A stretch of 64,000 nucleotides of DNA from Actinomycetota bacterium (GTDB lineage: Bacteria > Actinomycetota > Thermoleophilia > Gaiellales > F1-60-MAGs149), in the NCBI GenBank assembly GCA_009885805.1, contig VFJZ01000005.1, positions 1 to 64,000 of the forward strand, written 5' to 3'. The notes below the pieces were generated by a model. That model searched no databases. It saw only the letters and a program-made list of their open reading frames with translations, and was not told the DNA's origin. The translations under genes and the position numbers were made by a program. Positions 736 to 4,959 of this stretch are shown here, piece after piece; within the stretch, counting starts at the first letter, position 1; each line of letters starts with the position of its first letter.

Positions 736-1217
736 GCCTCCCGTCTCGCCGCGGCTTCGTGCTCGGCGGCCCAGCGTACGGCGCCGACGATGTTCTGGTA
801 GCCGGTGCAACGGCAGATGGCCCCCGAGATCGCCGTCCGGATCTCGAGATCGGTCGGGTCCGGGTTCGCGTCGAGCAAGGCGCGCGTCGTCATCAGCATC
901 CCGGGTGTGCAGAACCCGCACTGGAGCGCATGCCGCTCGTGGAAGCCCTGCTGGATCGGATCCAGCTGGCCATCGACCTCCAGCGACTCGACCGTGCGGA
1001 CATCGTGTCCGTCGGCCATCGCGGCGAGCACCGTGCACGACTTCACCGGCTCGCCATCCATCAGCACGACGCAGGCGCCGCAGTTCGACGTGTCACAGCC
1101 CCAGTGCGTGCCGGTCAGCCCGACCTGCTCGCGGATGTAGTGCACGAGCAGCAGGCGCGGTTCGACGTCGTGCGAGACGCGCTCGCCGTTGATCGTTATC
1201 GAGACGTTGATGATCAG
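732..1217 (-). CDS. coxS: CO dehydrogenase small subunit, 2x[2Fe-2S]
   Basis: This electron-transfer subunit passes electrons from the Mo site to FAD in CoxM. The plant-type ferredoxin motif GCDTSNCGACVV with a later KSC binds one [2Fe-2S] cluster. The C-terminal CGFCTPG and CRCTGY pairs bind the second. At about 161 aa it has the usual length. The start is unusual: no ATG, GTG or TTG lies between the upstream stop and the conserved INVSITINGERV. The first candidate is CTG at 1217, overlapping the coxM stop as CTGA. ATC at 1214 or 1211, 4-7 nt after a GGAGG, is an alternative. Confidence 0.93.
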   Translation of the reverse strand: MIINVSITINGERVSHDVEPRLLLVHYIREQVGLTGTHWGCDTSNCGACVVLMDGEPVKSCTVLAAMADGHDVRTVESLEVDGQLDPIQQGFHERHALQCGFCTPGMLMTTRALLDANPDPTDLEIRTAISGAICRCTGYQNIVGAVRWAAEHEAAARREA

Positions 1218-2104: not shown

Positions 2105-2719
2105 TCAGCGGGCGGGCAGTCGTTTACGCGGGGCGCCGATGTCGTCGCGCTCCTCGTACTGCACCGGGGCGTCGGTGCCGATGACGGGCGACCGCGGCAG
2201 CGCCGGCGGCCGCGACTGGCGCATCTCCGGGTAGAGCAGGCGTGCCGCGAGGCTGCCGCCCTCGACGTTTCGGAGGACGGTTCCCGCGGGGCTGGCAGCG
2301 GCGATCGGCGCCTCCCGCCCGAGGCGCGCGAGCGTGAGGACGCCGCGCGTGTACACCTCGGCGATGCGTGGCGCCTTGACGGTCGTGCTGTCCGGGTAGT
2401 TGCGCAGGCCGGCCGCAGCCGCACCGGGATACAACCCGTCGACGAGACCGACCGCGTCGACGAGGCCCGCCTTCTTCACGAGCAGCCCCTCGAGCAGATC
2501 GACGCCGGCATCGAGGTCCTTGTTGATCGCGCCGACGACCTCCTCGACCGGCGCCGTCTTCGCGAGGATCTCGCCGACGTTCGCGATCACCACGTCGAGG
2601 CCGTCCGTGATCTTCCGCAGCTGGACGATCGTCGAGACGAGGTACCAGACGAGCGCGAGGACGATCAGCACCACGGCGACGATCGAGCCGGTGCCTGGTC
2701 CGATGGCGAGGAGCATCAT
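2105..2719 (-). CDS. Membrane-anchored protein of the cox operon (204 aa)
   Basis: I do not recognise a named family. One N-terminal membrane segment (about residues 10-32, GSIVAVVLIVLALVWYLVST) is followed by an amphipathic helical part containing LRKITDGLDVVIANVGEILA. A longer, probably cytoplasmic C-terminal tail ends in a basic RKRLPAR. It is the fifth and largest of five similar proteins and directly precedes coxM by 15 nt. ATG at 2719 or 2716 follows an AGGGGG ribosome site. A role as membrane anchor or electron-transfer partner of CO dehydrogenase is inferred from position only. Confidence 0.72.
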   Translation of the reverse strand: MMLLAIGPGTGSIVAVVLIVLALVWYLVSTIVQLRKITDGLDVVIANVGEILAKTAPVEEVVGAINKDLDAGVDLLEGLLVKKAGLVDAVGLVDGLYPGAAAAGLRNYPDSTTVKAPRIAEVYTRGVLTLARLGREAPIAAASPAGTVLRNVEGGSLAARLLYPEMRQSRPPALPRSPVIGTDAPVQYEERDDIGAPRKRLPAR

Positions 2720-2724
2720 TCCCC

Positions 2725-2985
2725 CTACTCGGCGTCGTCGAGGATAACGTCGAGGGACCCGCCGTACCCGGCGACGCCCGCGACGGTCTGGTTGACCTGG
2801 CTCTGCGTCGTCAGAAGCAGCGGGACGGCATCGAGGTCGGCTGAGCCCGACCCGGTCGCGGCGGCGATCCGCTCGACGCTCGGGACGATGCTCGACGCGG
2901 CGTTCAGCACACCGCGAAGCAGATACACGACGACCGGCAGGACGACCAGGACGAGGACGGCGTCGCCGATCCACCAGAGCGTCAT
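2725..2985 (-). CDS. Small single-pass membrane protein of the cox operon (86 aa)
   Basis: The N-terminal membrane helix is about residues 5-27 (IGDAVLVLVVLPVVVYLLRG). It is followed by an amphipathic stretch with ASSIVPSVERIAAA and an acidic end (LDDAE). The ATG overlaps the preceding stop as ATGA, and the next gene starts 5 nt downstream. The pattern of one helix plus a periodic hydrophobic tail is shared with its four neighbours. No cofactor-binding residues are visible, and the function is unknown. Confidence 0.7.
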   Translation of the reverse strand: MTLWWIGDAVLVLVVLPVVVYLLRGVLNAASSIVPSVERIAAATGSGSADLDAVPLLLTTQSQVNQTVAGVAGYGGSLDVILDDAE

Positions 2986-3260
2986 CGCGGTCGCCTCTCA
3001 GCGACGATCGCAGCCTTGCGGCCGATGCCCGGCAGGGCGCCGAGAATGACGTCGAACTGGGCGTTGATCGCGTTGACCGCCGGCTCCAGCGGACGCAGAT
3101 GGCCAGCCTCGACGCCCTCGAGCGCGCCGGCGAGCGCGGAGAGTCCCTCGCCGATCTTCACGAGCCGGCGCCGCACCTCGATCAGCGCGATGGCCAGCAC
3201 CGCGACCACGACGACGGCGAGCGCCACCGTGAGCAGGATGAGGAGGTCCTGATCGCTCAT
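2982..3260 (-). CDS. Small single-pass membrane protein of the cox operon (92 aa)
   Basis: The predicted helix is residues 6-27 (LLILLTVALAVVVVAVLAIA). It continues into a charged amphipathic helix (EVRRRLVKIGEGLSALAGAL) and a tail with PLEPAVNAINAQFDVILGALPGIG. It overlaps both neighbours by ATGA. The INxQFDxILxxLPxI-like tail resembles the loosely conserved tails of the other four proteins, which suggests an expanded paralogous set. No enzymatic motif is visible. Confidence 0.7.
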   Translation of the reverse strand: MSDQDLLILLTVALAVVVVAVLAIALIEVRRRLVKIGEGLSALAGALEGVEAGHLRPLEPAVNAINAQFDVILGALPGIGRKAAIVAERRPR

Positions 3261-3547
3261 ATCTCACCGTACCCGTCGGTCAGCGCGTTCATGTAGCCGT
3301 CCTGCACGACGGCCTCGTCGACGATCATCGCGAGCACCGGCGCCGTCGCCTCCAGTTGCGGGATGTTGGCGGTGTTCGCGCCGACCTTGCCGGCGACCTC
3401 GAGGAGGCCGTCGACCGACGCGTTGATGCTCCGGACGGTCCTGACGAGGATCAGCAGGAGCGCGGCGACGATCAGCGCGGCCACGAGGCCGATGGCGAGG
3501 GAGATCGTCCAGTAGCCGTTGGAGGAGATGGCGGCGAGCGGCGTCAC
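3257..3547 (-). CDS. Small single-pass membrane protein of the cox operon (96 aa)
   Basis: It starts at GTG 3547, which overlaps the previous stop as GTGA, rather than at the longer upstream frame. One membrane helix (about residues 14-36, ISLAIGLVAALIVAALLLIL) precedes a VRSINASVDGLLEVAGKVGA amphipathic segment, then a tail with IPQLEATAPVLAMIVDEAVV. It is second in the five-gene membrane set. The function is not known. Confidence 0.68.
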   Translation of the reverse strand: MTPLAAISSNGYWTISLAIGLVAALIVAALLLILVRTVRSINASVDGLLEVAGKVGANTANIPQLEATAPVLAMIVDEAVVQDGYMNALTDGYGEI

Positions 3548-3795
3548 TTGCCCACCGCCACCTTCCGCAGCGCACGCGCGGCGTGCAGGATGCGGACGCC
3601 CGAGTCGTTGACCTGGCCGATCCCGGCGAGCGCGTCGGTCTGCTTGCGCAGCACCTCGACCGCACCGACCGCCGTCTTCGCCTGCCGGTCGATCCGCGCC
3701 GCCAGCATGACGATCGCGATCACGATCACCGCCGCGACCAGGATCACGACGACGCCGATGGCGATCCCGAGCTGCCACTGCGCATCATCAGACAT
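3544..3795 (-). CDS. Small single-pass membrane protein, first gene of the cox operon (83 aa)
   Basis: The membrane helix is about residues 9-33 (LGIAIGVVVILVAAVIVIAI), followed by ARIDRQAKTAVGAVEVLRKQ and a basic C-terminus. The ATG at 3795 has a GGGAGG ribosome site about 8 nt upstream and lies 34 nt below the -10 of a clear promoter. All later cox genes follow with overlaps or gaps of at most 15 nt, so this is the operon's leading gene. No family is recognised. Confidence 0.72.
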   Translation of the reverse strand: MSDDAQWQLGIAIGVVVILVAAVIVIAIVMLAARIDRQAKTAVGAVEVLRKQTDALAGIGQVNDSGVRILHAARALRKVAVGK

Positions 3796-3828
3796 CCGAC
3801 ACCGCCTCCCGCTCCCGCGTAGGCCAGC

Positions 3829-3857
3829 ATCCTACGTCCTGCGCGGGACGCAGTAAA
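3829..3857 (-). promoter_or_regulatory. Sigma70-like promoter of the membrane-protein/cox operon
   Basis: On the minus strand TTTACT (3857-3852) and TAGGAT (3834-3829) are separated by exactly 17 bases, close to the housekeeping consensus. The first gene begins at 3795. The divergent gene at 3895 starts 38 bp beyond the -35, so regulators bound here could affect both. Confidence 0.6.
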
Positions 3858-3894
3858 GCGACCGCCGACCGTCGACCGCCGGTAGCCTTGCCGG

Positions 3895-4959
3895 GTGCTG
3901 CGGATCGGCCTCATCGTCAACCCCCGCGCCGGCATCGGCGGCCGGCTGGCGCTGAAGGGCTCCGACGACGCCAGCCTCGTGCAGGCCGCGATCGACGCCG
4001 GCGCCGAGGCCCCGGCGCCCGCGCGCGCCCTGCAGGCGCTCGCTGCCCTCGCGGACGGAGTCGACCTCCTCCGCGCGCCGGGGCCGATGGGCGAGGACCT
4101 CGCGGCGCCAGCGGGCACGACGACGGCGGCCGACACCACGACCGCAGCGCTCGCGATGGTCGAGGCCGGGATCGACCTGCTCCTGTTCGCCGGCGGCGAC
4201 GGCACAGCGGTCGACGTCCTGCACGCAGTCGGCGACCGCGTACCCGTGATCGGCATCCCGGCCGGCGTCAAGATGCACTCTGCCGTGTTCGGCGTGACGC
4301 CGCGGCGCGCGGGCGAACTGGCGGCGGCGTTCGTCGCCGGGCGAACGCGGGGCGACGCGCCGGCCGAGGTGATGGACGTCGACGAGGCCGACCTGCGCGC
4401 CGGGATCATCTCCCCGCGGCTGCACGGCTACCTGCGCGTCCCCGTCGCGCCGGGCCTCGTGCAGAGCGGCAAGGCGCGTAGCGCGCCGGCCGAGGCGGCC
4501 GCGCAGGCCGCCGTCGCGGGCCACGTCGCGCGCGGACTCGGCAGGCGACTGGCGTTGATCGGCCCCGGGACGACGACGGCCGCGATCCTCGCTGCGCTCG
4601 GGCTGACGCCGACGCTCGTCGGCGTCGACGTCGTTGCAGGCGGACGGCTTGTCGCCGCCGATGCGAACGAGGAGACCCTCCTCGAACTGGTGGAGGAGGG
4701 CTCGTCGGTGATCGTGACGCCGGTCGGCGGCCAGGGGTTCATCCTCGGCCGCGGCAACCAGCAGCTCTCGCCGCGCGTACTCCGAGCGGCCGGCCTCGAC
4801 GCGCTCGTGATCGTGTCGACGGAGACGAAACTGGCCGCGCTCGGCGGTCGGCCGCTGCTCGTGGACACCGGCGACCCGGATCTCGACGCCGCGCTCTGCG
4901 GCTACCGGCGCGTCGTCACCGGCCCGGGCCACGAGACCGTCTACCGGGTCGCGACCTGA
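3895..4959 (+). CDS. ATP-NAD/AcoX kinase family protein
   Basis: A 354-aa member of the NAD kinase-like fold (AcoX group). It has an N-terminal NPRAGIGG loop (residues 8-15) and the nucleotide-binding GGDGT motif (about residues 100-104), followed by IGIPAGVKMHS. A second GPGTTT segment lies near residue 223. The substrate in this branch is not established; members occur near acetoin and other dehydrogenase genes. The start is GTG at 3895. It is transcribed away from the cox operon and its 3' end overlaps the convergent creatininase gene by 19 bp. Confidence 0.8.
   Translation: MLRIGLIVNPRAGIGGRLALKGSDDASLVQAAIDAGAEAPAPARALQALAALADGVDLLRAPGPMGEDLAAPAGTTTAADTTTAALAMVEAGIDLLLFAGGDGTAVDVLHAVGDRVPVIGIPAGVKMHSAVFGVTPRRAGELAAAFVAGRTRGDAPAEVMDVDEADLRAGIISPRLHGYLRVPVAPGLVQSGKARSAPAEAAAQAAVAGHVARGLGRRLALIGPGTTTAAILAALGLTPTLVGVDVVAGGRLVAADANEETLLELVEEGSSVIVTPVGGQGFILGRGNQQLSPRVLRAAGLDALVIVSTETKLAALGGRPLLVDTGDPDLDAALCGYRRVVTGPGHETVYRVAT

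Follow-up and report, generated by a model that had tools for sequence, protein, structure and literature searches.

Peripheral enzymes that live on atmospheric CO and H2 must hand their electrons to quinone in the interior of the membrane, and CoxG and HucM are the answers offered so far to how they do this. In Oligotropha, a coxG mutant contained complete CO dehydrogenase (CODH) but grew seven-fold more slowly and had no particulate enzyme, and the role proposed for CoxG (PF06240) is therefore the recruitment of CODH to the membrane (PMC4240915). CoxG was later called a menaquinone-binding membrane protein by Kropp et al. 2025, as cited in PMC13240472, and its proposed role includes bringing CODH to quinone. 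In the Mycobacterium Huc hydrogenase, a trace-gas enzyme peripheral to the membrane, menaquinone is proposed to arrive through HucM, a helical stalk linked to the membrane; HucM is a single protein that forms a tetramer and is peripheral to the membrane (PMC10017518).

Small single-helix proteins have been described for two groups of [NiFe] hydrogenases. HylTM1-5 are encoded between the subunit genes of the group 1l enzyme (PMC9561532, which uses this name and cites an earlier study). The same paper describes two small single-TM proteins of group 1m, of 82-92 aa with one helix each, encoded near DUF1059 and CooC-type genes. We found no description of a CODH-linked version of such a set in the open-licence papers searched.

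Five single-helix proteins encoded before coxM

The window, by which we mean the entire 64,000-nucleotide stretch of DNA that was analyzed, starts inside coxL and carries the minus-strand gene order A-B-C-D-E-coxM-coxS-coxL. As the original prediction stated, five small proteins with one N-terminal helix each are encoded before coxM, and all five reading frames are present and coding. Gene A (3795-3544, 83 aa) is a relative of the HylTM1-position proteins, and the end of its tail reads INDSG(V)RILHxARALRKVAVGK. Gene B (3547-3257, 96 aa) has a GTG start that overlaps the stop codon of A, and a single helix with the tail NTANIPQLEATAPVL..VVQDGYMNALTDG. The products of gene C (3260-2982, 92 aa) and gene D (2985-2725, 86 aa) are likewise single-helix proteins, with the tails HLRPLEPAVNAINAQFDVILGALPGI and LLLTTQSQVNQTVAGVAGYGGSLDVILDD, respectively. 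Gene E (2719-2105, 204 aa) specifies a single helix followed by a helical stalk and, in its CODH type, an additional conserved C-terminal part (PRIxEVYTRGxLTLARLGREAPI). The A-B-C-D junctions are three 4-bp stop/start overlaps (GTGA, ATGA and ATGA), E begins 5 bp after D, and 15 bp separate E from coxM; A-E are thus packed tightly into the operon, with overlaps within A-D but none fusing E to coxM. A single promoter had been proposed at 3829-3857, but no sigma-70 match of 9/12 was found in 3500-4200, and the site itself (TTTACT-17-TAGGAT) reaches 8/12 by our own count and lacks conservation among relatives. A divergent neighbor at 3895-4959 on the plus strand, with NAD-kinase-like N- and C-terminal domains, has its intergenic region in common with gene A.

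Downstream of the five genes are coxM (1214-2089; FAD subunit with FAD_binding_5 and CO_deh_flav_C), coxS (732-1217; 2Fe-2S subunit) and coxL (1-735; first 245 codons, then the contig end), a set with FAD, 2Fe-2S and Mo-binding subunits. Because base 1 of the window is base 1 of its contig (G000:C64), coxL is cut and its active-site loop lies outside the window. The part of coxL that is present is 93% identical to a complete form I CoxL. The remaining operon is apparently found at the end of contig C84 of the same genome (locus L106), where the end of coxD is accompanied by coxE, a short coxG and a CoxL-like fragment of 153 aa (MoCoBD_2). The coxS gene has no ATG, GTG or TTG where its relatives start. 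At 1211-1217 (minus strand), AGGAGG is followed by a CTG that overlaps the coxM stop (CTGA), and the relative L002 has ATG there; the first canonical start, a GTG at 1145, would leave coxS truncated. The CTG at 1217 is a probable non-canonical start, and represents either this or a one-base assembly error.

Substitutions relative to two relatives fall mostly at codon position 3 in all five A-E genes, as they do in coxM, indicating that A-E are translated and under purifying selection. In each protein a single hydrophobic segment near the N terminus is flanked by Lys and Arg only on its C-terminal side, and this distribution of charge predicts, by the positive-inside rule, an N-out topology with a cytoplasmic tail. 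This type of CODH is located on the cytoplasmic side of the membrane (PMC4240915), where these predicted tails lie. The suggestion that the tails are amphipathic had weak and partial support, from B and E, the helical moments of which exceeded those of shuffled sequences (p 0.02 and 0.05, respectively), but not for A, C and D, which did not beat shuffles. AF2 models of B and E as single chains gave, for B, helices 9-59 and 69-93 joined by a turn (pLDDT 84) and, for E, a helix at 8-84 in a model of low overall confidence (pLDDT 61, pTM 0.29); the B model is too plain and the E model too uncertain to guide fold matching. Pfam and NCBIfam contained no family for any of A-E, and sequence and profile searches of the PDB yielded chance matches only, with no relative of known structure. 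E had no match on plasmids, A-E had no sequence similarity to HucM as represented in PDB entries of Huc, and none had a Pfam match to the CoxG domain (SRPBCC/PF06240), the genome's own CoxG being encoded on contig C84.

Conservation of the set and its kinship with hydrogenase arrays

The survey was confined to Actinomycetota, with gene calls made by a simple script. The order A-B-C-D-E was present in 20/20 Thermoleophilia loci, mostly with -4 bp junctions. In 16 of the 20 the array directly precedes coxM, with E less than 500 bp away; in the other four (L043, L044, L061 and L062) the distance from E to coxM is 3.6-5.4 kb, and in L043 and L044 the gap contains the molybdenum-cofactor genes moaA and moaC (named from sequence). 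Every complete CoxL of the clade to which this enzyme belongs (clade A) is form I, with the AYxCSFR loop (AY[RAS]CSFR), in agreement with the form-I-like CODH of the original prediction. No [NiFe] hydrogenase was found in the genome that contains the window, so here the set can serve only CODH or something else. Four loci (L041, L059, L060 and L084) contain tandem CODH gene sets, of which one has an A-E array and the other a CoxL of the module-free type.

Following up the weaker matches to E, we came upon loci that lack cox genes and contain [NiFe] hydrogenase genes. In these loci, five (sometimes four) small single-helix genes lie beside subunit, hypC, hypD and hypE genes. We compared the arrays position by position using hhalign profiles of the tails only, with the helix removed. 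For CODH clade A against the hydrogenase arrays, the same position was the best match in 5/5 cases, with probabilities between the CODH and hydrogenase types of 96% for A, B and C, 94% for D and 98% for E. The same 5/5 result was obtained for CODH clade B against the hydrogenase arrays, for clade A against clade B, and for the hydrogenase arrays against arrays of group 1l layout, hydrogenase groups being assigned solely by gene layout and nearest structure. Compared directly with the group-1l-layout arrays, the CODH set gave 4/5 diagonal matches at full length and 2/5 with tails only, and its link to the group 1l layout is thus indirect, by way of the hydrogenase arrays. Across the phylum, the array A-B-C-D-E also occurs with the gene for the hydrogenase small subunit on one side and that for the large subunit on the other (L123, L125, L126 and L129-L131), the layout given for HylTM1-5 in PMC9561532.

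The CODH set therefore resembles HylTM1-5 in consisting of five consecutive short single-helix proteins in the order A-B-C-D-E and in its position-wise, though indirect, profile kinship. It differs in lying upstream of coxM beside a Mo-Cu CODH, in a genome without a [NiFe] hydrogenase, and in the additional C-terminal part of E. This location argues that A-E are a homologous module and not a part of a group 1l hydrogenase. Four-gene arrays in L049, L051 and L153 recall the group 1m proteins in protein size, single helix and proximity to DUF1059 and CooC-type genes, but contain four proteins (A, D, B, C) in place of the two described.

The original prediction of a CODH-specific device did not survive, as the same five families are encoded beside or between [NiFe] hydrogenase subunit genes; uniqueness to CODH was abandoned after the hydrogenase-type locus L049. 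That prediction had counted against itself a full CoxL lacking form I residues and a set conserved with unrelated genes; the set is conserved with [NiFe] hydrogenases, whereas the complete CoxL relatives are form I. We also rejected the idea that every [NiFe] hydrogenase has the array, since enzymes like 5AA5, the group 1h model in PMC9561532, have no adjoining array (913-924 bits, L147 and L148). Array-type hydrogenases score 457-484 bits against 5AA5, no array lay alongside the hydrogenases closest to 5AA5 in the loci examined, and 17/21 genomes with only the 5AA5-like hydrogenase type lack family B.

Iterated HMMs also pulled in membrane proteins of 190-270 aa near some arrays, which were left out as kinship evidence because helix-rich profiles drift. 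Three such proteins, single-helix and coiled-coil-like, are frequent neighbors of A-E arrays, whether the locus is of the CODH or the hydrogenase type (L043:5573-8000, L044:5460-7902, L056:11723-14043, L134:5355-7283, L112 and L113), and the module may therefore have eight parts in some lineages.

CoxG tails, CODH clades and co-occurrence

In genomes with the module, CoxG ended 0-7 residues after its domain in 24/24 cases, and in complete module-free form I clusters it carried, in 6/7 cases, a 76-170-aa tail with a hydrophobic segment followed by positive residues at its end, counts that are not independent trials because they reflect few events (one per CODH clade). Twelve of the 24 share a contig with an array, the others lie elsewhere in the same genomes, and L103, a doubtful gene call, was omitted. 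The module-free exception, L081, has a 46-aa tail with no hydrophobic segment; L083 is cut by a contig end and is not among the seven complete cases. A-E have no sequence relation to CoxG, which is still encoded in these genomes, minus its C-terminal anchor.

A second, distant CODH clade (clade B; L134-L141) has a form I CoxL of 54-57% identity and the gene order coxMSL-coxI-coxG-D-E-A-B-C. Its CoxG likewise has a short tail and no membrane segment. Each of the two module clades forms one group in the CoxL tree (100/99 and 100/100), with module-free CoxL between them, and a concatenated A-E tree likewise separates the two CODH clades. We read these trees as suggesting that CODH recruited the module twice, in preference to an early gain followed by losses. 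A conserved stand-alone CoxL fragment of ~150 aa (MoCoBD_2) lies between or near coxE and coxG in module-bearing clusters (L106:7750-8211 on G000:C84, L034, L035, L042, L092 and L095), whereas L076, a module-free cluster, showed none. It is a possible chaperone or cofactor carrier.

To survey co-occurrence, we used family B as a marker in 379 Thermoleophilia genomes, many of them fragmented assemblies. Family B was present in 20/20 genomes with a clade-A CoxL and in 20/20 with an array-type hydrogenase, or 36/36 genomes with either enzyme, as compared to 8/343 others (Fisher p 5e-43). In four of these eight exceptions (G000, G210, G233 and G366) a contig end interrupts the clade-A locus, and in two (G235 and G335) a short contig carries the array next to hydrogenase genes. 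This leaves 2/44 family-bearing genomes unexplained (G353 and G375), both of which have a hydrogenase. Family B was absent from 20/20 genomes that have a form I CoxL of another clade but lack the array-type hydrogenase. No enzyme was found near the arrays of L045, L046, L119, L122, L127, L128 and L143.

A proposed membrane dock and its alternatives

A role in docking or quinone coupling, as originally suggested, fits the predicted topology, the linkage to the enzyme genes and the missing membrane anchor of CoxG. Together with the five-part composition and the position-wise kinship with hydrogenase arrays, these sequence features lead us to think that A-E are probably the form taken with CODH by a membrane adaptor that is not tied to one enzyme and also appears as HylTM1-5 in group 1l operons, and that they replace the CoxG anchor as the dock. 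The five different single-pass, N-out proteins would build a membrane dock with a cytoplasmic helical stalk; the conservation of five distinct positions suggests that they probably assemble into a hetero-oligomer. This dock would hold soluble CoxMSL at the cytoplasmic face, and electrons from CO would flow to menaquinone. We infer docking from the genetics: A-E would take over the anchoring done in canonical clusters by the hydrophobic C-terminal tail of CoxG, leaving CoxG as a soluble quinone-binding domain. Quinone might then be passed by the short CoxG or by the stalk itself. By analogy with the HucM tube, a passage for lipid or quinone formed by the A-E helices is a speculative addition. 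Counting against the model are the weak amphipathicity of the tails, the failure to find a relative of known structure or a sequence link to HucM, the arrays with no enzyme nearby, and the small number of events behind the CoxG contrast, with L081 as an exception.

The short CoxG retained in module clusters would equally suit A-E that merely tether the enzyme, with quinone reached through the soluble CoxG domain or by diffusion, and single-pass N-out topology is what such an anchor would have. One helix would be enough for this purpose, and five distinct tails, highly conserved across CODH and hydrogenases, suggest something more; we therefore regard a pure anchor as somewhat unlikely. It is less likely still that A-E form a membrane platform for assembly or maturation, serving metal-cluster insertion and not permanent electron transfer. 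Several hydrogenase arrays do adjoin genes for CoxD/CoxE-like MoxR and VWA_CoxE proteins (L052-L054, L056 and L115), and arrays also lie beside hyp genes. However, the same CoxD, CoxE, CoxI and MobA genes are retained in CODH clusters without the module, which argues that maturation is independent of A-E, and L130, of group 1l layout, has the five genes between its subunit genes and no MoxR or VWA match in the 16 kb examined. Moreover, clusters with and without the module differ in CoxG, which is dispensable for the metal center (PMC4240915). The few arrays with no enzyme nearby (L045, L046, L119 and L127) could instead mark A-E as general membrane-organizing proteins, neighborhood passengers unrelated to gas enzymes. 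This we consider highly improbable in view of the near-perfect co-occurrence with two unrelated enzyme families in the 379 genomes, the insertion between hydrogenase subunit genes and the separate association with two CODH clades.

The dock model predicts one device for two unrelated enzymes. An A-E-type set is common to the CODH and hydrogenase classes, and the model would offer the unexplained HylTM proteins a testable role. More tentatively, the set could be a plug-in respiratory module, a five-protein membrane stalk supplying soluble redox enzymes with menaquinone. Chemically unrelated trace-gas enzymes would have recruited it independently (two or more times by Mo-Cu CODH, and by several [NiFe] hydrogenase lineages), in place of enzyme-specific anchors such as the CoxG tail.

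Two further features of the hydrogenase clusters were observed. The presence of the CoxD-like MoxR ATPase and VWA_CoxE genes within the clusters of L052, L053, L054, L056 and L115 suggests that CODH and hydrogenase clusters swap parts beyond A-E. Array-type hydrogenase clusters also encode a fusion protein with a NifU-like and a Rieske [2Fe-2S] domain (L052:4765-5625 and L130:11573-12505), a candidate electron carrier or cluster-assembly protein.
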